Source of the DNA: Apostichopus japonicus
Lineage: Eukaryota; Echinodermata; Holothuroidea; Aspidochirotida; Stichopodidae
Direction: 5' to 3'
Assembly (NCBI RefSeq): GCF_037975245.1
Contig: NC_092578.1
Location: 18,626,321-18,690,320, forward strand
DNA length: 64,000 nucleotides
A program made the position numbers and the translations under genes. Below are positions 17,601 through 60,602 of this stretch, in pieces; the first letter of the stretch is position 1; each line of letters begins with the position of its first letter. The notes beneath the pieces were generated by a model. That model had not been told where the DNA came from, made no database searches, and saw nothing but the letters and a program-made list of their open reading frames with translations.

Positions 17601-20600
17601 TATTTTTCATTTCTGAAACACCTTTTTCTTTGGCCAATGTTTTATCTGGGAGAACTAAATTGGTAAGCGTTTGTGTGACGTAAGTTAATCTTAAACAGAT
17701 TTATCATTGTAGAGCTCCTTACTGATGTGACTTTGAACATGTTCTGATACTTTATCATCATTACAATCCCACAAAATAATACAGGCCTTGAAATTCAGAC
17801 AATATACTGGCCAAATGCCAGTAGATATTTGTCTTTTGCCAGTAGAAAAAAAAACAGGCACTTTGCATCTTTTTGCCGGTAGACATTAATAACGTAACCA
17901 CATGAAGAGAGGGGTAACGATCGTCAGTCAAGGAATCGGGATGACTTCCTCACCTAACGTGAGCGATGTATTACTGCTTATTATCGACAAATCTTATTTT
18001 TTGGCTGCTCCCATGAAAACAGGAGATTACGTGATGTGAACTGTAATACGGTTCCCAATGGGGAACTGGATATTAGCCATTACAAATGTTGAAGTGACTG
18101 CATTTGTAGCAAAATTTGGGTGAATGGGTAAAGTTATGAAATTCTAAACCTGAGAATTTTTCTGGACTATTCAAGTTTTAGTGCAACTTAATGACACTGA
18201 TATAGTCGACAGAGTCCAACATTTATCAACTTGTTTTCTTCGTACATGCTCACTGAAAAACTAACAGTTTCTGTTAGACTAAATTATAGGGATCAGATGG
18301 AATAAATGCACCGATTAATGGATCAGATGGAATAAACGCACCGATTAATTTTTAATTTTTAGTGGAGAAATCTAAGAGACTGTCTTTAATACTTTAGATC
18401 AACAGTAACTTCATTTGGAGCAAACCAGAAATGCTGGAAAAAAGTCTTTAAAACGTAAACTAGTCTATAACAACTTTTTTCGCTAGATACAAACTTACAT
18501 TGAGTTGTTCCTCGTATCTCTCACAGATGCTGTCGACTTCCTGGGCGTGTTCGTCTATTTGCTTCTGCAGTTCGTGGGTGACTTCCCGATGTTCTTTTTC
18601 TATCCTAGACTCCACGGAATGTCCTTTACCTGCAAACAAATAACGACACCAAAACTGTTTCCTTGACTGGAGAAAAAAAAGCGTTTCTTTCATATCAAAA
18701 TTATGATGTTACCTTTCAACATTCCGCAGCAAATTTGGATTTTTAGACTATCGCAATTGTTTAGTATAAAGAGGTCCATGTGTAAGCAAGAAAGCATGGT
18801 GATTCAATTATCCCAAAAACTTACAACGACATTAAGAGCGATAAACGTAATGACTATAGCAAGCGACAGATGTCGTAAAAGTTGAACCGACGAAACGGCA
18901 TAATTATCAATATTAAGTATGTGTCTATATATGTGTATATATGAAACGCTTTAAACTCACGTATAGCATCATCGATTGCTTTGTGAGATTCCTGTTCCTG
19001 GGTGACTATCTTTGTGTTGACCTCTCGTAGGACTTGTTTGACCTTTGACTCGTAGTCCGCTTCTCCGGCAGCTATCCTGTCGTCGCATTCCTTCTTCATG
19101 GAATCTACTTTCTGCTGACATTCTAGCTCGATCAATGCCATGGAAGACTTGTGTTCTTTACTGGAAGCGAAAAAGAAATGGCAAGAAACATGCCGATATA
19201 ACTTTAACTTAAAAAGATATTGCGTAGGATACTGGTGATATGCACTTTGTTATTGGAGGAGGAGAAAGAGGAGGAGGACGAGGAGGAGGAGGAGGAGGAG
19301 GAGAGGGGAGGAGGAGGAGGAGGGGGAGGAGGAGGAGGAGGAGGGGGAGGAGGAGGGGGGGAGGAGGAGGAGGAGGAGGAGAAAGAGGAGGAGGAGGAGG
19401 AGGAGGAGGAGGAGGAGGAGGAGGAGGAGGAGGAGGAGGAGGAGGAGGAGGAGGAGGAGGAGGAGGAGGAGGAGGAGGAGGAGGAGGAGGAGGAGGAGGA
19501 GGAGGAGGAGGAGGAGGAGGAGGAGGAGGAGGAGGAGGAGGAGGAGGAGGAGGAGGAGGAGGAGGAGGAGGAGGAGGAAAGGTTTAATATCTAGCAAGTG
19601 ACACCAATCTTTTTAGCTGAGGATCAAACTCTACTCATTAACACAAACTTAACTGGGAAATTATTGGGAAAAAAATTAAAAAAATTAAAAAAAAATACTG
19701 GGAAAAAAATGGGAAACAAAGTTTGATCTTCTGATTAGAACTCTGGTTAAGTGGGTGACCGACCATTCACCCAAGTTCTGAGCGACTGGATATTTCTGAT
19801 GTTAGGAGATGGAGTTAGTTACAGTAGATCATTTTTAAAATCCCATCCCTTCATTAGTCAAAACTTTTATATTTTACTTGTTCTATCAAAACTAGTTTAT
19901 GATGCCCAACATCACTCTTGTTGTTATAATTATTTACAGTATCTCATGCCTACCTATAAGACAGCTTTACTTTTCTCTTTCAAATCCCTTTGAAGTCCCT
20001 TTCCAGGGATATTTACCATGTAACAATCACTACTAACTCACCTCATCACCTCTAGTTGATTCTTCAGGTCATTAAGTTCTCCTTCCAGCTTTAGGGATCT
20101 CTCTTTCTCAATCTCCAATTCTCTCTGAATATTATCAGTGGATTCTTGGTTACCAGGTGGCGCTGTTCCCAGCATACTTTCCTGCACAGGTACGATCTGT
20201 TCTACGATGGGTTCTCTGGCTGCCAAAGCCAGTCGCTCTTCTGATTTCTCTCGCTCCAACCTGAGCGTTTCGTTAAGTTCGTCGATACGTTTCTCCAACT
20301 TTGTCACTTCCTCTTCGTGACTTCCTCTCAGCTGGGACAATTCCTCACCTTTGACCTTTGATTCCTCTCGTAAGGTCTCGATTTCACTCTTTTTAGTAGA
20401 AAGCTCTTGGCTATATTTTCCTTTGATTTGACTTATTTTTATCTCCGCCTTCTTTTTCAAGTCGGCAAGTTTCTGATTTTCACCTGAACTTTGGGTATCG
20501 TGAAGAGAACTGATTTGTTCTTCTAATTGTTTGACTTTTTCCTCCTTTTCTCGCAACTCCACTGCACCTTTCTCAAACTTTTCGGTCATTTCGGCTGCTT

Positions 20601-23600
20601 TCGCCGCAGCCTCTGTCCTCTCTCGGTCTACTTCTTGTAACCTGTCCTCGTAAGTTTTCCTGACTTCTTCGAGCTCGACATTATGTTTCTCGACAGATTC
20701 CTCCAGGGCTTTTAACTTAACGCCATGCATTTCTTCAATGCTGCCTTCTAACTCAGAAATCTTTTTCGCTGTCTCCTTCTCAAACTCTGCAAATTTGTTA
20801 TCTCTCTCTGTACATTCGGTTTCATGCCTTTGCTTCTCCTCCTTGGATGTCTGCTCGAGTTCCCCGACCTTCGACCTCATACTCTCCTCACCTACCTGAA
20901 CCTGTTTCTGTAGGAGAGCGATTTGCTCTTCGGAGGCCTTCAGTTTCACCTGCATGTCCAAATCAGCGTCCACCATGTCCTCTATCTTCTGCCTGTATTC
21001 TTCCAGCTGAGATATTTCCTCCTTCAACTTCTTGTTCTCCTCGTTCACCGATGAGACGGTCCCCTCGTTCTGCTTCTGGAACGATTCCACCATCTCGAAA
21101 TGTTTCTGCTCCGCTTGCTCTAGCTGATCTTTAAGTTCTTTCTCTTTGGCTTTCATCTCTTCCGAATGCTTCGTCTCTAAGCTTTGGATGATCTCTGCCT
21201 GTTTCTGTTCAATGAGGTGTACTTCTTCATCATGTGATGCTTTCATATCTACCTGGACCTTCTCCAAATCCTCTACTCTTCCAGCTAATTCCTTCTCCTT
21301 TTCTTCCATCTCACCTTTCAAAGACTGTTTCTCTTCTACCTCTGCTTTCAGTTTCGACTCCAACTGCTTGATTGCAGCTTCCAGTTCTGTCTTCTCCAGC
21401 TGCAGTTGTTCTCTCTGACTTTCCACCTCCGATTGGATCCTTTCCAAAGCTTCTGTCTTTTCTCCCTCCAAGCTCACCTTGAGATCCTTCATTTCCTTCT
21501 GAGCCGTCTCTAAATCCTTCCTCAGAGTGGCAATCTTAGCTTTGGCTTGCTCGCTCAGCTTAGCCATCTGCTTTTTATGCGTCTCTTGTTGGTTCTTCAG
21601 ATTCTCTTCGTGTTCTATTCTCAACCTCTCTAACTGTTCACCGTGAGATGCTTGTAATTTAGCAGTTACATCTTCCAAACCGATCTCTTTCTCCTGGAGT
21701 AACTCCGTTAATCTGGCTTGAAACTCATTCTCCTTTTCACTCATTTTAGCTTCCAAGTTCGCTTTCAAATCATCCTTTTCCTTCTGGTGTGATGCATCAT
21801 CATCCCGCAATTGCTGTTGCAGTCTCTCGACCTCCTCCCCCATCGTTTCTTTAACATTCCCCATCTTTGCCTCCAGTACACGGATGTCTTCTTTCAGTTT
21901 CGACTCCATCTCGTCCTTACTTCCGTCTAGTTTGATTCTCAGCTCCTCTCTCTGATTTTCAAGCTTGCTCATAATCTCTTCCATTTCCTTCTTATGTTCC
22001 TCTTTCAATGATTCCACCTGCTCCTGGTAAGTCTTGGTCATCTCCTCCATCCTCTCCTTTGCCGATGTCAGTTTTGCCTTCGCCTGACCTTTCAGATCGG
22101 TAAATTTCTTGCTCTGCTCATCTTTCAGCCGTTTCTCCCTCTGGGCGTAATCCTCCGCCAGTTTCTGCGATTCTTCATCCTTCTGTTTGATCGTCTCCAA
22201 CAAGGTCTCGATCTTGGTCCTCATGCCTTCCACGTCCGTCGAAAATTCTTCCACCTTACTCTGAAGGACGTCGGCGAGCGAGGCCTTCTCTTGCAATTTC
22301 TCAAACTGGCTCTTCAACGCAGTCATCTCCTCATGGGCGGTCAAGACCTCTTTGTTCTTGGCACTGATCTCTGTCTCCAGCTGCTGGTTCTTCTCCATCA
22401 GGGCATCTTCCCTTTCCTTCCTCTCTTTGAGTGATTCTTCGACTTGACCGACAGCATTCTGACTCTCGTCTAATCTACTGGTGACCTCCTCCTCCCTGCG
22501 TCTACATTCTTCTTCTTTAGCAATCATCTTATCTTCCCACTCCTTCTTCTCATGTTCCCACTTCTCGATCACTGCTTCACCCTGCTGCTCCATCTCGGCG
22601 ATTTTCATCTCCTTCTCGCTGAGAACCACTCGTAACTTTGCTATCTCCTTCTCCAGGCCTTCTCTGACTTCTGACAAGGAACTTTGCTTCTGCACTTCTA
22701 CTGATTCCACTTTCTGTTCCATTTCCTTTCGAAGTTCCTCCTTCTCTTGAGCCAATTGCTCATTGTGACTCTCTCGGACTGCTTCCAGAGTCTGCTCCAG
22801 GGCGGCAGAGTTCTGTCTAAGGACTTCAAGCTCCCCTTCCTTGTTTTCAAGTTCTGCTTGCACTTCCGCATGTTTCCTCCCTGCTTCAGCCAAAGCTTCT
22901 CTCTTCTCCACCAATTCCTTCTCCAGTATTTCCAACTTGTCGCCAACTTCTTCCTGTTTGCTCTTCAAATCCGAACGAAGTTTATCCAATTCCTCTTTCA
23001 TCCTCTCTGACTGCAGAGCGCAGTCCTTCAATTCTTCTCCTTGGGACCGTAATTGCTCCACATATTTTTCGTTCTCCTCCTGAGAGAGCCTTAACGTTGC
23101 GGTGACCTGGTCGACCTTTTCAGTGCTTCTCTGCCTCTCGGCTTGAATCACCTCATTTGCAGAGTTAAGCTCACCTTCTAATTTGTTCTTTAAGGCATCC
23201 ATGGCTTGCTCCAGTTCCCTCTCTTTGAATCCCGCATCTTGCAGCTGTTGTTCCTTCTGCTGCAGGGAATTCAGCGCCTCTTCTAACTTCAATCCCAAAT
23301 CTTTCGATACTTCGTCCACGGAGCTCTGCTTCTGTATTTCTGCAGCCTCCACTTTGCGAGAGACTTCCGACTCGAAATTCTCTTGTTGCAGCTTGAACCT
23401 TTCCTCAAAGTCGGCGGTCTTGTTCTCCAAGTCTGTCTTGATGGCTTCCAGATCCAACTGAGCGGACTTTAGCGACCTCTTAGTCTCTTCCAACTCTACA
23501 TTTATTTGATCCATCTCAACAGTCTTTTCAGAAACTTCCTTGTCTTTCTCCTCCTTCAAAGACTTCACTTCTTCTTCTAGTTTGGTCTTCTCTAATTCCC

Positions 23601-24272
23601 ATTCAGCTTCCACTTTCTTCAGTTTCGATTTTGTGTCTTCCAGTTCAGTTTTCAGTGCTTCCATTTCTTGAACCTTCTCCTGAAGTTGGTTTGACTTCTC
23701 AGAGGAATCAGATTGCAAGGCAGAGGTCAGGTCAGCGATGGTAGAATCTTTCGCGTTTACGTCCGTGGTTAGTTGCTGGATCTTTTCTTTCATGCTTGTG
23801 GCTTTGCTGGCAATTTTTTGCAACTGTTCCACTTTCTCTTGAACAATTCTTTCATTGCTTTGTTTCATCTCATCGATCTTCTGTTGATACTGGGTTTCGA
23901 TTTCTTTATTATTGGCCTCCACAGTCTCTTCATGCTGTCTTTGAAGTTCCTCAATGTAAGTCTTGTGTTCCTGATGGGAAAGGAAAGAAAATTGCAAAGT
24001 TCAGCGATTCCGATACATATCACCATTTGTACAATTTCTGTCGATCAAACTTCACCCTTCACATCAGAAATTTAATGTTTACAAAGATAATATCCAGGAA
24101 ATAATATGATTCCGGTGTACAAAAACAGCTATGCATCTTTACACTGGTATAACAATTTGACCATTTTTTCATACTATGTTGCAATGCGATACTGAATCAA
24201 TTATCCTGTTTCATGCTAGTTGTTTAATTTTTCATTGTACACAGAGAATCCTTGGCTAAATCTGATTAATTC

Positions 24273-36892: not shown

Positions 36893-37567
36893 AGTCATTG
36901 ACAGGATCCGTCAGTATGTTTATTCCGTTGTTACAGCAAAAGACAGTTGTTCTTAGCAAACTCAACCAGTTCGTCATAGTGTCGGCGTAAAATAGCTTTG
37001 TTCGCATATTCTGAAAATAAAGTTTAAGAAGGACACTTTTTTTTTTTTTTTTTTTTTAATGTAAACCTAGCTATAGTTGCACCACTTTTACGGAGGCTCA
37101 GAAAAGTCAGTGGAAGTGAAGGTGGGTTATCATCTCGAAATGTCGAAGTTTTATCTGAAACATTCTACTTTTGGAAAAAAATATATATATTCTCTAAAAT
37201 TAGTGACTGTTTCATCAACTGCAGTTTAATTAACGCTACGTCTTTCAAGATATCATATAATCATGCCTTATGCATTTTGAAATGTATGAACTCGGCTATG
37301 TTCTTGTGAAATTCCCGTCCTTGTTATGTAGCGAATCCTGTCAAATTGTATTCTTTATTCTTCTTCTTCTCCTTCTCAGTCTCCTTCTTCCCTTTTCTTT
37401 CCTTTTTTTTTTTTTTTTTTTTGTTATTGTTGAAATGTTGTCAATTCTCAGTGCAGCACCAAGAAAACTGGTCTATATATTCTTATTTCTTGTCTAATCT
37501 GCATTTCTAATTATTAATTTCTATTGCTTACTTTAAGCTGTTTTCTATTGGTTCGTGATTCCTATAG

Positions 37568-37964
37568 CAGTGGCGGAGTGTCCATACAGTCAGAGGGGGC
37601 GGATGCCCCTCCTGACGGACTCAAATGGACTGCTGGCGCCCTTTTCAGCTTTTTACCACTTTTTACTTCTTCGCGAGTATTGACTTTTTTATTGCGCTCT
37701 CAAATACCTATTGTCATTTGTCACATTTTGTTGGTGTAATTTTCTGACAAAATGGCGATGACACCTATTTATTCTTCATTTATCTGCAAATTAGCAAGAC
37801 CCGGAAAGGGTCATGTCCGGCGATCTAGGGAGTATCTTTACTCCAAAAAAAATTAATTTGTACGCTCCGCGCCAACCTGTGGTGGCGCTCCGCTTAGATA
37901 GTGTCGAAAGCGCCCCTACAGACCATTCTCGCCCCCCTGACCAATACCCCTAGCTCCGCCACTG
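37568..37964. mobile_element. hAT-type MITE, 397 bp, with 8-bp target duplication
   Basis: Terminal inverted repeats CAGTGGCGGAG ... CTCCGCCACTG flanked by perfect 8-bp direct repeats TCCTATAG at 37560-37567 and 37965-37972. The TSD length and CAG ends fit hAT elements. No transposase. The core (GTACGCTCCGCGCCA ... GGTGGCGCTCCGCTTAGATA) recurs at 55880-55935. Confidence 0.9.
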
Positions 37965-38785
37965 TCCTATAGTTTTCCTGTTGTCAAATCTTCCTGATGC
38001 TATCTTATCAGATTGTAAAAAGTTATCAATATACTGTCTCGATTAATATTATGACATGCTAAAACTTCTTTAACGCTTACCAAGAGTGGTTTCCCCGCTC
38101 TCGTGTTACTCCCGGCATTATGCATGTGGGCGTTAAATAAGGTATTGGTAAATATGTCTCAAGAGGTTAAAGTGGCAGTCAATGCAGTGTAATTTACATT
38201 TGAAACATATGTATGACCATTATTTGATTTCCTAGCATATTTTGAGGTTATGACGTCGATGCCCTTTAATATAGTTACATTCCTGGCATGATACGATGTG
38301 TGTGTGTAATTGTTTGCTTTGATTTTTTTTTGGACGTAGAGAATTTACAGTCACATTCTTAACATGACATTGTCTGTGAATTTTATTAGTTTAAACAAGT
38401 CAGTATCACACTTAAAATTGAACTTGTGTACTAATAAATAGATCCTATACTGGTAAGGAATATAGAAAATTTTTATTAGTTGTAAATTGTCCCTTAATCT
38501 ATTTCGATAAAAATGAAACTTCAGCAACTATAAAACGTGACAGATGAATACTTAAACTTATTAATTTAATGACAGATTGAAAGATTAGAGATATTGTAAT
38601 CGACATCATAAAATTCAGATTCGTTTCTGAATATAACCGGAGACAACAATCTTGTGACAATTAAAACTTGATTCTCTTGAAGACTGACCAGCCTTGTAAC
38701 TGGTTGTATAGTCCTACCAGTACCAGAAAGATCTATATTTTAAGTACTTCGAAAGTTGACACCAGTGGATGCCAGTCACATCAAA

Positions 38786-40999
38786 ATGAAGATTTTGGTA
38801 ATTCCATTGAAGTTCTTGTTACTTTATTGCTTTTGGTCTTCATTCTTCTTTCATGTCAACGCTGCATCTGAAACGCCTTGTCCTCCAGGATGTTCCTGCG
38901 ACAACGACGGAGAATGGAGATGTGAGAGCAACAACCTGGTGAGAATTCCATCTCCTCTTCCTGAAAACATAACGTCTCTTGTCCTGACTTCACAGAACAT
39001 CCCCACCATTTACCGAAATGATTTTAGTGGTGTGCAAAGATTGCTGAAAATTAAAATTAACAACTGCAACGTATTGAACATTGAAAACGGAACGTTTGAA
39101 AATTTAACGGAGTTAGAAGAGTTGGATTTGGATTCGAATCGCCTGACGACAATTGATGTGAACCTTTTCCGGGGTCTACACAGTTTACGTATTCTAGAGT
39201 TGTCCCATAATGAAATAGAGAGAATTGAGAACGGAACATTTACAGACCTGAATAAATTGGAACAGTTGAGCATTGCATCAAATGGCATGCGCAGTATTGC
39301 AGAAGGATCATTCGAACCTTTGACATCCCTAGAAAATTTACTCCTAAGATGGAACGAATTGACTCACATCACGGCTGCTACATTAAATGGGCCGCAACAA
39401 CTCACTGAAATCAACTTAATATCTTACTATTTGATCTCATTTGAAATCCCATCATCGTTTTCACAGAGTTTACAAGTACTCCATGTAAACTATAATTCCA
39501 GACTGTCGTTTCCTCCATGTAGTTTGGGAAATCTCTCGAGTTTACAACATCTTTCTATCGATCGCACTTCGGTCAACTTTACAATTGATTTATTCGTTGG
39601 GGATGATTGTTACGGGAACCAAACAATCCCACCGTTGACTGATCTATCAATCGAAAATACTAATACTGAACTAATTTCGGTAGATTTATTGAGTCGATTT
39701 CCAGACTTACAGCGATTCTCTTTTGGTGATGACGATGAAGATATGTATGTGGAGCCTGGATCTCTGGAAGTACTTCAACAGTTAACTTACCTTCGACTGT
39801 ACAAATTACCGCCTTCATTTTACCAGCAAAGTATCGTTGAACCGTTGCCTCTTCTAATTGTTTTATGGATGGACGATCTCACAGCCATACCAACACCATT
39901 TATCACTGGGATCAGTAGAATTCTACGAGACATGTACATTTATTACCCGACGTTTACGGAATTGCCAAGTGGGGCATTTGGAAACGTTGCCTCTATGAAT
40001 TTCATTAGCATTGTAGATTCGCAAATAAAAGCCATTGACAGAAATGCATTGCAGGGCGTACCAAATCTAAGCAGACTCTCTTTCATCCGAACTCAGATAT
40101 CATTTCTACCGAATGGTCTCTTTGATAATACTCCTCAGCTTGACAGCATAGTCTTAAACAGTGATCGCCTTTCGTGTAATTGTAGTATGGCATGGGTGGT
40201 AAATTTTCAAGAAAAAAGACAGGACGTGACTTTAAGTGGTGACTGCTCCAGTCCGGCTCAACTAGAAGGAGCACCATTGTCTTCCTTGACTGACGTTGAC
40301 TTTGACTGTGTCCGTATACCAACTACACAGCCTACTACTGCAGTCTTAACTGCTGATGGAACACCACGACTCTCGACTAGAACTAAAACTACCCATCCCA
40401 CAACCAGGCCAACGGCTAGTACAGTAATACATGCAACTACAACAGGACATCTGAGCAGTAGTACAAGCTACCCGACAATCATAACGAATCAGACTTGGAC
40501 GAAATTCTCCGCATACCGTCCAAGTTACTTTACAACTAAAAGTCTGACGGAAGGGTCTACAATTAGCACTGAGACGTTAAACAAAGTTTCCACAAACATG
40601 ATCACAACAAACGGAACCAAGACACAGTTTCATTTCTTTTGGATATATATACCTGTAACTATTGTGGTTATAATTACGCTTGCTGTTACTCTTGTAGTTG
40701 TCCTAATAAAGGCACGCTACTTCAAGAAAGGCGCAGATCGTAACCATCGTGCAGGTGGTGAAAATAAAATTATACATGCATACGCTATAAATGATAATGG
40801 CCGCATAAACGACGCTTTCTATGACACTATTGAGGATGGAAGCTCCGCAGCTAATTATGGACTTTCTTCTCCCTGGACTAACATACCGATACAAACTTCT
40901 GTTCCATCATCAACCCAAAATCATCATCCACATCCTAAAAGTATCCATCACTATCAAAACAACAAAATAAATCGACCTGCCCCACCATATAGTTACTAA
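38786..40999 (+). CDS. Intronless type I membrane leucine-rich-repeat receptor A (737 aa)
   Basis: Likely a cell-surface recognition or adhesion receptor; ligand unknown. Signal peptide about 1-27, LRRNT cap 32-60 (CPPGCSC...C), LRRs about 61-460 with N-glycosylation sequons, LRRCT cap 464-508 (CNCSMAW... ending DFDC), Thr/Ser-rich stalk 509-612, one hydrophobic segment 616-641 followed by KARYFKK, and a 96-residue tail with tyrosines including YDTI at 679. The in-frame sequence extends 10 codons upstream but begins with TTG, so ATG 38786 is used; the neighbouring paralogue starts at the same residue. One exon holds the whole protein. The tandem paralogue lies 2.35 kb downstream on the same strand. 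Vertebrate LRR receptors share this plan, but I see no specific orthologue. Confidence 0.9.
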   Translation: MKILVIPLKFLLLYCFWSSFFFHVNAASETPCPPGCSCDNDGEWRCESNNLVRIPSPLPENITSLVLTSQNIPTIYRNDFSGVQRLLKIKINNCNVLNIENGTFENLTELEELDLDSNRLTTIDVNLFRGLHSLRILELSHNEIERIENGTFTDLNKLEQLSIASNGMRSIAEGSFEPLTSLENLLLRWNELTHITAATLNGPQQLTEINLISYYLISFEIPSSFSQSLQVLHVNYNSRLSFPPCSLGNLSSLQHLSIDRTSVNFTIDLFVGDDCYGNQTIPPLTDLSIENTNTELISVDLLSRFPDLQRFSFGDDDEDMYVEPGSLEVLQQLTYLRLYKLPPSFYQQSIVEPLPLLIVLWMDDLTAIPTPFITGISRILRDMYIYYPTFTELPSGAFGNVASMNFISIVDSQIKAIDRNALQGVPNLSRLSFIRTQISFLPNGLFDNTPQLDSIVLNSDRLSCNCSMAWVVNFQEKRQDVTLSGDCSSPAQLEGAPLSSLTDVDFDCVRIPTTQPTTAVLTADGTPRLSTRTKTTHPTTRPTASTVIHATTTGHLSSSTSYPTIITNQTWTKFSAYRPSYFTTKSLTEGSTISTETLNKVSTNMITTNGTKTQFHFFWIYIPVTIVVIITLAVTLVVVLIKARYFKKGADRNHRAGGENKIIHAYAINDNGRINDAFYDTIEDGSSAANYGLSSPWTNIPIQTSVPSSTQNHHPHPKSIHHYQNNKINRPAPPYSY

Positions 41000-43353
41000 T
41001 CTTGACCAGACATTTGACTCCAAGTGTGTATATCATTTTAACAAGCATACGATGTGTTAAGAGTACAACAATTTTTTTCTCATGTCAGGAATATATTTCA
41101 TTTTATGTATAACTCTTAAATAAGCGAACAAGGATGTTTCAGCGTACTAATTTTCCATTTTACTTTTCAAAGAGCTTGTAAATGCAACTTGAGGATTTTC
41201 TATACAGTTTGTATCTTACGGTGGTTCCGAAGGGTCACCCGAATCGTAGAATTAGTGTTTTAGCATAACACGACAAATTTGTATATTTTTGTTGAGTTAA
41301 AGAGTTACGCCAACGTTACATCTGGACTCCGAAAATTATCAACTTGTCGAGTTGCTGCGTTGCACGTAGCTAGACAACAAGTCAAAAATACAATATTTGC
41401 TAAGTTGACAGGTTTACGATAATATTATCTTGGCGACAATTATCAATTCGTTAACTTGTCAACTTTTCAACTCGACAAAACTCACATTTTTTATTTTGTC
41501 TTGCTATAATAACACGATAAGTCTACAACTCTCCCGTCCATTCAGAACCACCGTAGATTCCCATACTTTTTGTCTTATTCAATTTCGTTGTATGATATTA
41601 CTTTAATTTGCAGTTGTGTTAGTAACTTACAAAGACTTAAACATATAGAGAAAGTTAGAAAGACTTTAATATAAAATGAGTTAGAAAGGTTTAAATTTTA
41701 CAAAAGCTTAGTAAGACTTGAAGTTAGTAAGTACAGCAGGTGTAACTGTGAGGGGTGCGTTATCCTCCCATACAGAATATAAGCAACCCCCCCATCATCC
41801 CAACTGGCAGACTGAATATACAAAAAGTGTTACTGGACAGTACCGTACAACAATATTTAGCATGTGTGTGAGGTGCAACCCATAGACAGTCGGAAACGAC
41901 TCCACACTTTTTCAAAACTTAAAGTATAGCATCATTTTGCATCTAAGCAACCATGTCTTAAAGGGGAGGGGCCATCACCAAACACCACCCCAGCTACATT
42001 GAGAGTACTGCATGCAACTTTAACAAATGTTAGTATTAATTTACTTAGTTATGTTAATATGTTTAGCTTAGGATTTGGGGCACTGTTATTGGCTTACGTT
42101 GCAGGAGGTAACCAATACCCTCGCTAAAACACGTATTATAGTTGAAGCTTTATGACATATCTCTTGTTTTCAGCTTACTTTGGTCATCATGTACCAAACT
42201 GTCAAAAAGAGGAATTAGTCTGATTTGATAATGCAATGATACCTTCGCATATCGCAAAGCCCTATACTGGGGCCCAGGCCTGATGCTATATATACAGCTT
42301 TGTCATGTAAGTTATTCCTTGTTTCCTGGCGACGAATTTGAAATAAAAATGTCAGAAACAGGAATTACCCTGAAATTCCTCTAGAATGTGTAGCTGAGCT
42401 CTGTTGGGGGTCCGCAGGGATGGGGGGGGGTGCCATGAAGCTACAGCGTTCGTATTATCTTGTATTTATAGTGAATCAGAAGCACACAAAGATTAACATT
42501 TCTGAAAGAGGAATCACTGTGAATGTATTTCCTTCATGTTCGTATTTGATTTTAAACAAATTAATGAGGCGTAAATAACCGCAACTGAATAAAGCTGCCC
42601 ACCCCCCCCCCCCCCTCAACCAGATTGGTTGCTTTCAATTTGCATCACGCCTACATCTAGCAGGATATTATTAATCGAAATGCATTTAATGTTAACGAAT
42701 TCAGTCTCTATGACAGTGAAGGAAGCAATAATAATTTTTCAGTACATTTGGCAACAAGAATGAGTTGGTATTTACAAGATAAATAATGGTTAGTTGTTTT
42801 CCAATTTTGTTATCTGTCAAATAAAATTTACGCAAGCAGAAACTTTCCTAGTGTTTTCTTTTGTTTTCCTTATCGAGATCTTAGGCCTTCATGCTTTGTG
42901 GTTTGTGATCGATCAGCAAGTACGTGATTGATTTAAATCTTCGACTTTGTTCAACTATAATCGCTAACTCACTCATCTTATTTGCATATACCCCGCACCC
43001 TGCATTTCCTTATGGTCCGGCTTCAGCAGAATATATAATACTGCTTATCGGTATGCTAATAGACTCTTATAGGTGCAATTCACTTTGATTGTTTATAAGT
43101 ACATAAAACACTACAAAATGATTCCAGAAGAATTTTACAGCAGGACAATAAAGTCAGCGACTTATATGCCCCTCTTTATGAGATATTTACAGTTCAGTAT
43201 AAATTTCGCAAATGCGATAACAATTATCTAGTGAATATGAACCATCAACAACGGGAGATTTTCATTGTTGTGAAGCATAGTTCTGTCGCAGGATAACCCA
43301 GCTGAAAAGTTTATTCAATTAATTACCTTTCGTTTATATGATTCGATATCACA
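41000..43353. other. Spacer between the two LRR receptor genes
   Basis: Contains the TA-flanked MITE (41219-41553) and poly-C/poly-G runs near 42420 and 42600. The 400 bp before the second ATG do not resemble the sequence before the first, so the promoters or 5' UTRs are unrelated. No coding sequence seen. Confidence 0.65.
41219..41553. mobile_element. MITE with TA target site, 335 bp
   Basis: Ends CGGTGGTTCCGAAGGG ... CCATTCAGAACCACCG (two mismatches) bounded by TA at 41217-41218 and 41554-41555, as for Tc1/mariner-like elements. It lies between the two LRR genes. No coding capacity. Confidence 0.7.
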
Positions 43354-46086
43354 ATGAAGATTTTGGTAATTCCATTGAAGTTTTTGTTACTTTATTGCTT
43401 TTGGTCTTCATTCTTCTTTCATGTCAACGCTGCATCTGAAACGCCTTGTCCTCCAGGATGTTCCTGCGACAACGACGGAGAATGGAGATGTGTGAGCAAC
43501 AACCTGGTGAGAATTCCGTCTCCTCTTCCTGAAAACATAACGTCCCTTGTCCTGACTTCACAGAACATACCAACCATTTACCGAAATGATTTTAGTGGTG
43601 TACAAAGATTGCTGAAAATGAAAATTAACAACTGTAACGTACTGAACATTGAAAACGGAACGTTTGAAAATTTAACGGAGTTAGAAATGTTGAATTTGGA
43701 TTCGAATCGCCTGACGACAATTGATGTCAATCTCTTCGGGGGTCTACACAGTTTAAGATTTCTGGATTTGTCATACAATGAAGAAATAAGTATTCAGAAC
43801 GGAATTTTTACAGATTTACCTTTTTTAAACCAATTAAATATGAGAGGAAACAATCTCAAAAATCTGACTGCTGGAACTTTCAGTGGTCTCCGTAATATGA
43901 CCTTTCTTGACCTATCTGACAATGACATCGAAAGTATTGAGAACGGAACATTTATTGATCTGTATAGGTTGGAATATTTACGGCTAAGTGGAAATGATCT
44001 GAAATATTTGAGCGTTGATACATTCAGTGGCCTTCATAGTCTTAATATACTATACATTGATTCAAGTAACATCGATACTATTGAGAACGGAACATTTTTA
44101 TATTTGAATAATTTACGGGATTTATACCTCGGATCCAACCGTCTCAAACATCTGAGCGCTGGTATCTTCAGTGGCCTTCATAATCTGGAAAATCTTTACC
44201 TATCTAAAAATGATATAGAGAGCATTGAAGACGGAACATTCGAACCATTAACAAAATTATTGATTTTAGATCTGCAGGACAACAAACTAACTCACGTTAA
44301 CGCTTCTACCTTATATGGACCAGAACAGCTTACTAATCTGTACCTACATTTTAATGAACTGACTTCGTTGCAAATTCCTCAATCTTTTTCACCAACTTTA
44401 CGAATTCTTCATTTGGGAGACAATAGAAATTTGTCATTCGCCCCGAGTAGCTTAGGAAATCTTTCTAATTTACAAACACTCTATGTACAGAGGACCTCAG
44501 TAAACTTTTCACTTGATCTGTTCTTTGACGATGATTACCATGGGAACTATACAATTCCACCTTTGACCACTTTACACATCGAAAATTCTTCCACAAATAT
44601 GATTTCATTGGATTTACTTGATCACTTTCCAAGTTTAGAGGAATTGGCCTTCAGTGGTGAAGAAACGTATGTAGAGAATGAAGCATTAGAAGTATTACAA
44701 CAGTTGCGCACCCTCTTTATTTACCAAATGCCGTCTTCACTACATGGGCAAAGTTTTCTTAACCCATTACCTCGACTTCAAACCATATCCATTTATTATC
44801 TTAAGCTTAAGACAATACCGACGCCATTCATTAGTACAATCAGTAAAGTATTGAATAATCTTCATTTTTATTACTGCCAGTTTCAGGAATTACCCAGCGA
44901 GGCATTTGGAAATATATCCTCGTTAAACAGGATTACTATTCAACAGTTATCTCCTCAAATAGTTTCGGTGAATAAAGATGCACTGATGGGTGTTCCTAAT
45001 ATTCAATTTCTTTATCTTCGTAACTTCAAGTTAGCAGTCCTACCAGATGGGTTGTTCGATCACACTCCTAGTCTGTCTAACCTGGATCTATACGGTACCC
45101 AATTATCGTGTAATTGTAGCATGGAATGGTTGCTTAATTTTATAGAAACACAAGACGTGTCGGTTACTGGTCATTGTTTCAACCCCCCTGCACTATCAGG
45201 AATAGCTTTATCTAACCTAACTACGGATGACTTGAATTGCTTTGAAAACACTACTACAGAAATACCAGGATCAACAGATACAATAACTGAATTGTCCAAT
45301 ATGCCAGCCTCGCAACGTCTTACAACATCTGCTACCACAGACGCCATTAAGAGTACTAAAGACGTAACGCTGCCGTGGACTACGCAAACACCAGGATCGG
45401 CAACATATAAATTAACTGTGTCCAATACGCCATCCTCGCAACGTCCCACTACATCTTCTACCACAGACACCATTAAGAGTACTACAGGCGTAACGACAGA
45501 CTCTTCAAATCTCAAACTTACGACTGACAAACATAGTGACAGACTCACCACTGAAAAGAACGATTTATCCACAGGGATTACACACACTAGAACTACAAGA
45601 ATATATCAATCTAAAGTAACTACTGAGAGCAATTCACCAAAATCCAAATTCACGACCGGACACACGTACTCTTCCATCTCAACCAGTGGACATACAGACA
45701 CGTCGACAAGTCCATCTCAATTCCCCATGATTACTTCAATCCTCCTTGTTGTATCCGGGTTGATCATAATCGCTCTAGCCCTGTCTCTTGCATCTGTCGT
45801 ATTCAAGTGGTATTACTCAAAGAGAGAAAGAGGTCGTAGTGTTGGTCGCACAACTACCTCAAACGTTGCAAAAGATATTAGCAACGAAGACGATGGTAAC
45901 TATGAGATAGTAGACACTAGCAACTACTCGAACCAAACACTACAATGGACTAGTAATATACCTCTTAAAACTACAGAAACTTCAACAGGGCTGTATTATA
46001 ATCAAAATGAATATGATGATTATTATGAAAATAACATGGAACGGAGAGGAAGTTCTCCTTATCAAAACGTTGATAGCAGTATTTAG
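43354..46086 (+). CDS. Intronless type I membrane leucine-rich-repeat receptor B (910 aa)
   Basis: Paralogue of the gene at 38786. Signal peptide 1-27, LRRNT 32-60, LRRs about 61-580, LRRCT 586-629 (CNCSMEW ... DDLNC), Thr/Ser-rich stalk 630-788, hydrophobic segment about 791-817 (MITSILLVVSGLIIIALALS) followed by KWYYSKRERGR, and a tail to 910 with YEIV at 850 and many other tyrosines. It has five extra 24-residue LRRs compared with A, alternating between ENGTF-type and AGTFSGL-type units. The stalk holds a 42-residue duplication. The first 130 residues are nearly identical to A; the rest is clearly diverged but alignable through the LRRCT. Surface receptor by architecture; function not known. 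Confidence 0.9.
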   Translation: MKILVIPLKFLLLYCFWSSFFFHVNAASETPCPPGCSCDNDGEWRCVSNNLVRIPSPLPENITSLVLTSQNIPTIYRNDFSGVQRLLKMKINNCNVLNIENGTFENLTELEMLNLDSNRLTTIDVNLFGGLHSLRFLDLSYNEEISIQNGIFTDLPFLNQLNMRGNNLKNLTAGTFSGLRNMTFLDLSDNDIESIENGTFIDLYRLEYLRLSGNDLKYLSVDTFSGLHSLNILYIDSSNIDTIENGTFLYLNNLRDLYLGSNRLKHLSAGIFSGLHNLENLYLSKNDIESIEDGTFEPLTKLLILDLQDNKLTHVNASTLYGPEQLTNLYLHFNELTSLQIPQSFSPTLRILHLGDNRNLSFAPSSLGNLSNLQTLYVQRTSVNFSLDLFFDDDYHGNYTIPPLTTLHIENSSTNMISLDLLDHFPSLEELAFSGEETYVENEALEVLQQLRTLFIYQMPSSLHGQSFLNPLPRLQTISIYYLKLKTIPTPFISTISKVLNNLHFYYCQFQELPSEAFGNISSLNRITIQQLSPQIVSVNKDALMGVPNIQFLYLRNFKLAVLPDGLFDHTPSLSNLDLYGTQLSCNCSMEWLLNFIETQDVSVTGHCFNPPALSGIALSNLTTDDLNCFENTTTEIPGSTDTITELSNMPASQRLTTSATTDAIKSTKDVTLPWTTQTPGSATYKLTVSNTPSSQRPTTSSTTDTIKSTTGVTTDSSNLKLTTDKHSDRLTTEKNDLSTGITHTRTTRIYQSKVTTESNSPKSKFTTGHTYSSISTSGHTDTSTSPSQFPMITSILLVVSGLIIIALALSLASVVFKWYYSKRERGRSVGRTTTSNVAKDISNEDDGNYEIVDTSNYSNQTLQWTSNIPLKTTETSTGLYYNQNEYDDYYENNMERRGSSPYQNVDSSI
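45265..45510 (+). repeat. 126-bp tandem duplication within the stalk of LRR receptor B
   Basis: Two in-frame copies, 45265-45390 and 45391 to about 45510, each opening CCAGGATC and containing SNxPxSQR, TTS.TTD and IKST. This lengthens the Thr/Ser stalk by 42 residues relative to one unit; receptor A lacks it. Confidence 0.75.
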
Positions 46087-48688: not shown

Positions 48689-54085
<5,397 letters not shown>

Positions 54086-55700: not shown

Positions 55701-56014
55701 CAGGCGCGTAGCCAAGGGGGGGGGGCGAAGGGGGGAAGCCTCCCCCTTGAGCATATTTTTTAATTTTTTTTTTTAAATGTCTTTAAAGATATCGCTAGTA
55801 ATTTCAAATGAGAAAATGCTAAGAAGCAACTTACAAGGCCTGGGAAGTGCCATTTCCAGCGATCTGGGGGGCATTTTCAGCCAAAATTTTCTTGTACGCT
55901 TCGCGCCATATGTGGTGGCGCTACGCTTAGATAGTTTGCATAGCCATTTCTACGGCTCTGATAATTTGCCTACATTTTCGCCCCTCCCTTGGCAAATTCC
56001 TGGCTACGCGCCTG
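55701..56014. mobile_element. hAT-type MITE, 314 bp, with 8-bp target duplication
   Basis: Ends CAGGCGCGTAGCCA ... TGGCTACGCGCCTG, flanked by TCTAGGAT at 55693-55700 and 56015-56022. Shares the GCGATCTGGGG and TGTACGCTTCGCGCCA ... TGGTGGCGCTACGCTTAGAT core with the element at 37568. Non-coding. Confidence 0.9.
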
Positions 56015-56259: not shown

Positions 56260-56440
56260 CAGCGACGTAGCCAGGGATGTGAAAGGGGGAGCACTTTTTG
56301 CGATTGATATGGATTTTCAAAGTTGTAGGCACGACTATCTGAGCGGAGCGCCACCATCGAATGGCGCGGAGCGTACAAGAAAATTGTTGGTTTTACAAAC
56401 CCCCCAGATGGCCGGAAATGGCCCTTCCCTAGTGTTCATT
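56260..56440 (-). mobile_element. Truncated related hAT-type element, opposite orientation
   Basis: Starts with CAGCGACGTAGCCAGG and carries the family core in reverse (GAGCGGAGCGCCACC ... GGCGCGGAGCGTACAAGAAA). No matching right-hand terminal repeat or target duplication was found, so the right edge is approximate. Confidence 0.6.
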
Positions 56441-59519: not shown

Positions 59520-60602
59520 TTAAAGTTTGGTATCACTGGTGGAGATTTCTCTTCTTTGAGATGTTGCCTCTAATTTTTCAGTTTTACTTTGACAGAGTCT
59601 CTTCAAAAGGTTACATCTCTGAGGTACCTTACTGAACTTGCAACAAAGGATGCACTTAATGACTTCCTTGAAATTTGGATGCCAGAAGCCATATATGACG
59701 GGGTTGACACAGCTGTTCGAGGTAACACACAAAGCAGCCCATGGAATAAAGGCGTATAACCCTGGGATAGCATAGGTTAAAACGTATGGTATTATACACA
59801 AAACATATGCGCATACGATGACGAACAGATTTTTCGTTACTTTAATTTGGCGGTTGTTTATTTCTTTTGTATTGCCAGGTGCCTTTGAAGAGGGTTTCGA
59901 CTTTTTGTACTTGATTTGTGTTTGTCCAGATTTAATGAGAAAACGAAAGATGGAAATGTAAGAGAATATTATTACAATTAGACAAGTAACAGGTAACAAT
60001 GTCAGTCTCACAGCTGTGTAATACAACGTTAGTTCGTTGTCCGAATTAAGTGTACATACGCGATAACGCTTGGAATATCCCAGAGCACCTACTCCAAAAA
60101 AAGGGAGTATAAATGTTACCAAGGCAACATATGTCCAACTTAACATTACCATCAGGCTGATATTTCTCTTACAGTATAATTTCAAGTACGCATTCTTAGA
60201 TTTAGTTAACAAGTAAAATCGATTTAGAGCTATCATTGCCAAGTTAACCACACTAGCAGAAAACATGATGTAAGTTAAACCGGACAGTGCCGCACAGAAG
60301 CCGTGCGAGAATGGTAAATCATCACTGATGTAAGTAGCCGCCAGAAATGGCAACGTCGAACAACCCATGAAATCAGAAATGGCTAAGTTTACGACAAATA
60401 CATTCGTCGTCGTTTGTAGTTTACGGGAGACGAAGACCGAGGAAACCACCAGACCATTTCCAAACATACCGATCACAGTAATTATCAGGTAACCCAGGGC
60501 TATGAGTCGGCGTTGAGTAGGATCGTCAAAATAGAATAACCACTCCGTTGTCAAGATTTCGTTTGAAATTGTACCGTATGTTGATGTATTATCATTATCC
60601 AT
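59520..60602 (-). CDS. Rhodopsin-type (class A) G-protein-coupled receptor, single coding exon (360 aa)
   Basis: Seven-helix membrane receptor; ligand not predictable. TM1 about 34-58 with GN at 48-49, TM2 with NLAISD (Asp77), TM3 103-129 ending in ALNRF, TM4 149-169, TM5 196-220, TM6 257-278 with CIIP, TM7 284-306 with NPVIY at 300-304, then helix 8 and CC (320-321), a possible palmitoylation site. Cys103 and Cys183 can form the usual disulfide. The DRY motif is NRF, as NRY-type variants occur in melatonin-receptor-like and some orphan receptors. N-terminal sequon NTST. A TTTTTTTGTCTGCATTTCAG acceptor lies 19 nt upstream of the ATG, so a 5' UTR intron is likely although the coding part is intronless. 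Expanded families of single-exon class A receptors are known in sea urchins. Confidence 0.92.
   Translation of the reverse strand: MDNDNTSTYGTISNEILTTEWLFYFDDPTQRRLIALGYLIITVIGMFGNGLVVSSVFVSRKLQTTTNVFVVNLAISDFMGCSTLPFLAATYISDDLPFSHGFCAALSGLTYIMFSASVVNLAMIALNRFYLLTKSKNAYLKLYCKRNISLMVMLSWTYVALVTFILPFFGVGALGYSKRYRVCTLNSDNELTLYYTAVRLTLLPVTCLIVIIFSYISIFRFLIKSGQTQIKYKKSKPSSKAPGNTKEINNRQIKVTKNLFVIVCAYVLCIIPYVLTYAIPGLYAFIPWAALCVTSNSCVNPVIYGFWHPNFKEVIKCILCCKFSKVPQRCNLLKRLCQSKTEKLEATSQRREISTSDTKL

Follow-up and report, generated by a model that had tools for sequence, protein, structure and literature searches.

The window, which here means the whole stretch of 64,000 nucleotides that was analysed, originates from Apostichopus japonicus (assembly GCF_037975245.1, NC_092578.1:18,626,321-18,690,320, a contig labelled C18) and carries two leucine-rich repeat (LRR) genes in tandem on the plus strand. 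Gene A (38786..40999) is a single ORF of 737 aa and gene B (43354..46086) a single ORF of 910 aa in the ORF listing, and the intergenic spacer between them (41000..43353) comprises 2354 bases. A 397-bp element at 37560-37972 has 11-bp terminal inverted repeats (37568 and 37954-37964) with 8-bp direct flanks, and looks like what we take to be a hAT-type MITE; pieces related to it occur at 55826-55935 and 56334-56429. The spacer holds an imperfect inverted repeat (41217-41306 / 41461-41555, 95 nt, 68%), possibly a second MITE. Other features of the window are a coiled-coil ORF on the minus strand (20038-24000, 1320 aa from stop to stop), which is golgin-like by eye and whose 1276-aa ATG form gave no Pfam match, the exons of a WD-repeat gene recognized by eye on the plus strand (48980-52800), the first of which matches DCAF13/Sof1 (E=3.5e-31), and a single-ORF rhodopsin-family GPCR of 360 aa on the minus strand (59520-60602; 7tm_1, E=5.2e-38). 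A search of the whole window against Rfam at gathering thresholds delivered no matches.

From the N- to the C-terminus gene A encodes a signal peptide, an LRRNT, LRRs, an LRRCT, a Ser/Thr-rich stalk, a transmembrane segment and a tail of 96 aa. Gene B has the same layout, with an LRR array that is longer by 120 codons (five LRRs of 24 codons each) and a tail of 94 aa. The signal peptides are putative and were called from hydropathy and by eye, and the LRRNT, a Cys-rich cap ahead of the LRRs, was likewise called by eye in both proteins. LRR_8 of Pfam matches A with E=8e-47 and B with E=2.2e-64; the LRRCT gives a sub-threshold Pfam match in A (E=0.017) and no Pfam match in B. Serine and threonine make up 0.42 of the stalk in A and 0.46 in B, and besides the hydrophobic segment at the start each protein possesses one strong hydrophobic segment, assigned as transmembrane. 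The tail of B contains four YxN sites and the string SPYQNV, presumably ITIM-like to judge from its pattern. No TIR domain was matched in A or B by Pfam at E<=0.001, where only LRR families were found. The solved structures nearest to A, the only query used against the PDB, are LRR proteins including IGFBP-ALS, LRRC15, LRRTM and TLRs. A and B thus look like LRR transmembrane receptors with a predicted signal peptide and tentatively assigned caps.

The two genes share a nearly identical N-terminal block, which covers 38780..39184 in A and 43348..43752 in B (plus strand), begins six bases 5' of the ATG, runs through codon 133, and takes in the signal peptide, the LRRNT and LRR1-3. Over the 401 bases that start at the ATG there are 17 differences, in line with the roughly 16 of 400 of the original prediction, whose interval also fits the start of A and the end of the cassette in B. 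The first 139 bases hold one of these differences, a silent one that is the only change in codons 1-46. The signal peptide is identical in A and B, while the sequence of signal peptides is usually free to vary. Beyond the block the proteins are moderately similar, as had been noticed from the sequence at the outset, with an amino acid identity of 0.51 in the aligned LRR body (A codons 170-514) and about 0.30 in stalk, transmembrane segment and tail.

The contrast is also present at silent sites. By the NG86 method codons 1-133 have a dS of 0.134 and a dN of 0.020, whereas dS outside the block amounts to 1.17 (A codons 134-143), 1.18 (144-169), 1.53 (170-514) and 1.28 (626-737), and is saturated in codons 515-625. 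Of the codons that encode the same residue in both genes, silent differences affect 11 of 125 within codons 1-133 and 125 of 250 in the part beginning at codon 144 (Fisher p ~1e-16). The sliding-window comparison of synonymous divergence suggested with the original prediction was carried out and shows values that are unequal along the length, with one dominant breakpoint: the best silent breakpoint falls after A codon 124 with a log-likelihood gain of 37.6, the maximum in 500 permutations being 8.4. The lowest dS of any 30-codon window beyond the block is 0.49, and none comes close to the value of the block. The cassette identity between A and B is therefore confirmed as real and clearly beyond chance. 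Within the block the two halves are not different (3/62 and 8/63 silent differences, p=0.21); a single difference in the 139 bases at the extreme left has a chance of about 0.7% under an even spread, for a stretch that was chosen post hoc.

Mis-joining or copying of one cassette during assembly can give near-identical blocks between different flanks. The 17 differences, however, divide into 11 silent and 6 replacement changes (NG86 counts), a purifying pattern that is hard to ascribe to polishing error, and the assembly (671.6 Mb) consists of just 35 contigs, so that an artefact of this kind is scarcely credible.

At the left edge the similarity ends next to the start codon. Six of the ten bases before the ATG match between A and B, and further out the identity falls to chance level (0.35 over 20 nt, 0.24 over 50 nt), which bears out the earlier observation that the 5' sequences are unrelated save for a few bases. 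A three-segment fit places the edge six bases before the ATG with a support of 5 to 8 bases, and local alignment of the two genes begins at the very same base. The 2 kb ahead of each ATG, and likewise the 1 kb after each stop, gave local alignments no better than those of shuffled sequences. By blastn the spacer, the 5 kb that precede A and the 5 kb that follow B showed no link with one another, and at E<=1e-3 the only hit of the spacer within the window was its own 95-nt inverted repeat. Because the duplication is so old that silent sites are saturated, neutral flanks are expected to be unalignable, and a homogenized block that begins with the coding region must then end near the ATG. The left edge is the border between coding and unalignable noncoding DNA, and no special mechanism is required for it. 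Graded similarity to either side, as argued at the outset for a simple tandem duplication, is thus not to be expected of this pair, whose duplication is too old for alignable neutral flanks.

Other causes of an edge at this place were inspected by eye. A splice site in the 5'-UTR is not favoured, as no shared acceptor was seen next to the ATG. In B an in-frame stop stands just 5' of the four codons that precede the ATG, and this ATG is therefore the first in frame in an unspliced message. No transposable element was seen at the boundary, the nearest one recognized being the hAT-like MITE about 820 bp upstream of A, and no microsatellite was seen at the block edges.

At the right edge identity drops strongly at codons ~125-134, followed by an intermediate zone that reaches to codon ~153 in register 0. 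The transition occupies 39185..39289 of A (plus strand, codons 134-168). The best register of A on B is 0 up to codon 144 (0.71), +48 at codons 145-160, +96 at 161-168 and +120 from 169 onward. Codons 145-152 of A match B at 0.92 in register +48, 0.88 in +96 and 0.71 in register 0; register +120 is best at codons 169-184 and 193-200, and at 185-192 register +144 reaches 0.54 versus 0.46 for +120. It follows from these shifts that B carries its 120 additional codons, equal to five 24-codon LRRs, right after the cassette. The extra units lie approximately at 43783..44223 (plus strand), just 3' of the cassette; the internal repeats of B resemble each other at a spacing of 48 codons, as double repeats, and the units have no unique placement. 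The right edge (codons ~125-153) is where the five extra LRRs of B break the register of the arrays.

The cassette was also searched for in the whole assembly. At the DNA level, with a search that skips common words, there were two candidates, both scored, and these are A and B only. The protein search gave at least 92 matches, with 150 of 378 candidates scored; the best after A and B among the matches scored shares 42% aa over residues 18-142 and lies on contig C23 (L027), and the same gene has one stretch of 46 residues at 52% aa. A third copy of the cassette in further genes, as expected from exon shuffling, was found neither by the DNA search nor among the scored protein matches. A tblastn search revealed no related LRR segments besides A and B in the window or within 10 kb on either side, and a pattern search of viral contigs gave 13 matches, 0 of them confirmed.

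The gene on C23 bears on the notion that the copies stay alike with no exchange at all, through selection on the N-terminal module at the level of DNA, RNA or protein. The protein is indeed constrained, with a dN/dS of about 0.15 within the block, yet the silent sites are alike too (dS 0.13 versus at least 1.17 by segment). L027, at 42% aa, has lost its identity to A at silent sites, as 9/15, 13/23 and 16/25 same-residue codons in the cassette region differ silently, and a constraint of such strength is thus not family-wide. Maintenance by selection alone is accordingly very improbable. The two explanations offered at the outset fared differently. Gene conversion is well supported by the joint drop of silent and replacement divergence, the identical signal peptide and the bodies being old sisters, whereas the data neither require nor demonstrate selection that keeps one cassette on diversified arrays, because silent sites are homogenized and no third carrier was found.

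Twelve further receptor pairs, picked by eye among neighbours and look-alikes from a part of the 92 cassette protein matches, were compared in the same genome. The one clear patchwork among them is L036/L037 on contig C5 (14732000-14738000 and 14740000-14746000), a tandem pair about 8 kb apart. Its block comprises 1345 nt at 96.2% identity from inside the signal peptide to codon ~460, that is, approximately from LRRNT to LRRCT, with the right end near the end of the LRRCT by eye. Alignment of the upstream DNA of the pair is no better than that of shuffles, and stalk, transmembrane segment and tail share 28-44% aa. A partial patchwork is seen in L038/L039 on C18, with a nucleotide identity of 0.91-0.99 over codons 51-400, 0.79 and 0.57 at the 3' end and 0.85 at the 5' end; this pair has no sharp left edge, since L038 and L041 align for about 60 bases upstream of the ATG. 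L042/L043 are evenly diverged, and nine of the twelve pairs, not all of them tandem, resemble each other throughout, varying somewhat from place to place. L028/L029 and L031/L032 are megabases apart on one contig and hence not tandem. L047, L048 and L049 (C9:23.58-23.81 Mb) are TLR-like, with LRRs, a transmembrane segment and a TIR-like tail labelled by eye, and are ~97% identical over the stretch compared; their 5' ends are probably missing, as the protein search gave longer open frames than the ORFs compared (796-797 aa). Upstream identities of the pairs were taken ungapped from the ATG and are misleading for L028/L029 and L038/L039, whose start codons are out of line. A and B are not the only pair with a bounded block, and the module covered may differ between pairs. 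Because nine of twelve pairs are alike along their length, such blocks are not the rule among the pairs compared, and one clear patchwork in twelve gives no rate, as the pairs were picked by eye.

The history of A and B outside the block was followed in trees of ten of 25 genes, which contain several long branches, whose deeper forks were not used and from which, as from the pair comparisons, L033 and L035 were left out. In the tree of the bodies A and B are sisters (support 100/99) at a path length of 1.81. In the tree of the N-terminal parts of the same ten genes the path from A to B is 0.056, so that the bodies are about 30 times further apart.

These trees weigh on a different origin of the patchwork, in which unequal or illegitimate recombination joined N-terminal DNA of A type to another body of the family, or vice versa, after which one copy acquired a different upstream sequence; the module would have been transferred once, with no exchange between collinear remnants. 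Two abrupt edges, the left one at most 8 bases from the ATG, are what such a joining would produce, and the block of L036/L037 spans roughly a module from LRRNT to LRRCT. Within the set of ten genes in the tree, however, the bodies of A and B are closest to one another, and there is no call for a foreign one. Had something merely been inserted next to the ATG, homology should moreover persist further upstream; none was found by local alignment of 2 kb, or by blastn with the whole spacer and the 5 kb that precede A. We regard this origin as unlikely.

The best fit is interlocus gene conversion restricted to the last collinear stretch. It accounts for silent and replacement sites, for the identity of the signal peptides, for the sister relation of the bodies and for the two edges; as judged from sequence comparison of two paralogs in one species, we give this reading a probability of about three in four. 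A and B would have arisen when an intronless gene for an LRR transmembrane receptor was duplicated in tandem long ago, and most of their length would since have diverged to synonymous saturation. Conversion, once or repeatedly, would have copied some 400 coding bases (signal peptide, LRRNT and LRR1-3) between the two genes, and the exchange would have been limited to the one block that had kept its collinearity and could still be aligned. On the left it would end where noncoding DNA is past detectable homology, and on the right where the five extra LRRs of B put the arrays out of register. We infer both conversion as the mechanism and heterology at the two edges as the confinement. The pair displays what is expected of gene conversion, namely low silent divergence in the tract, discrete breakpoints, and relatedness outside the tract in the ten-gene tree. 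The identity between A and B is greatest at the outermost left bases, a point that does not fit simple decay from the edges. Conversion may be polarized towards the 5' side, with breaks close to the promoter.

The pair offers a clean natural case for what limits conversion: noncoding DNA that does not align at one end, a change in repeat number at the other. N-terminal similarity, or trees built from it, can mislead on the age of such receptor genes. A wider reading would be that the intronless LRR receptors of this genome evolve module by module, sharply bounded exchange homogenizing different modules in different tandem pairs: the head of signal peptide and N-cap in A and B, and the whole LRR sensor in L036/L037, where diverged stalks and tails are kept. 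This generalization is tentative and on balance doubtful. If it is general, the genome holds receptors with a shared head and diverged sensor next to receptors with a shared sensor and diverged signalling tail. Receptors of the latter kind would resemble the paired activating and inhibitory receptors of vertebrates. L036/L037 would combine the same sensor with different signalling ends, which makes them the most promising lead and, as far as sequence goes, a possible paired-receptor system in an invertebrate that is worth following.

A search of the literature by titles and the openings of abstracts, mostly outside subscription journals, delivered no account of the A/B pair or of a block bounded by the ATG. 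A and B are like Toll-like receptors in having an LRR ectodomain and a transmembrane segment, and unlike them in having no TIR match. The VLR of jawless vertebrates is encoded by an incomplete germline gene that is completed by flanking LRR segments, whereas A and B are complete germline ORFs with nothing pointing to somatic assembly. The arrangement of an LRRNT head, variable LRRs and an LRRCT is common to A, B and the VLR as mentioned in PMC10199209. The PDB matches of A include VLR chimeras.

The Sp185/333 (SpTransformer) proteins of sea urchins are, to our knowledge, not LRR receptors. Their genes are clustered and of immune type, and in PMC3091723 exchange between them is proposed to be restricted to a bounded block, as in A and B. 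According to the same source (PMC3091723) the Sp185/333 block takes in the 5' and 3' flanks out to GA microsatellites, unlike the block of A and B.

A and B are, on the simplest reading, a clear case of a process that is already known. Interlocus conversion between tandem duplicates is described in PMC2588116, for example for the Amy and Bob pairs of Drosophila, together with a shrinkage over time of the identifiable duplicated block under conversion, and edge decay is there predicted to raise divergence at the block edges. Like Amy and Bob as treated there, A and B are old duplicates with a homogenized core in a diverging neighbourhood; unlike Amy and Bob, where divergence is raised at the edges, A and B are most alike at the left edge, from which identity falls abruptly (PMC2588116).
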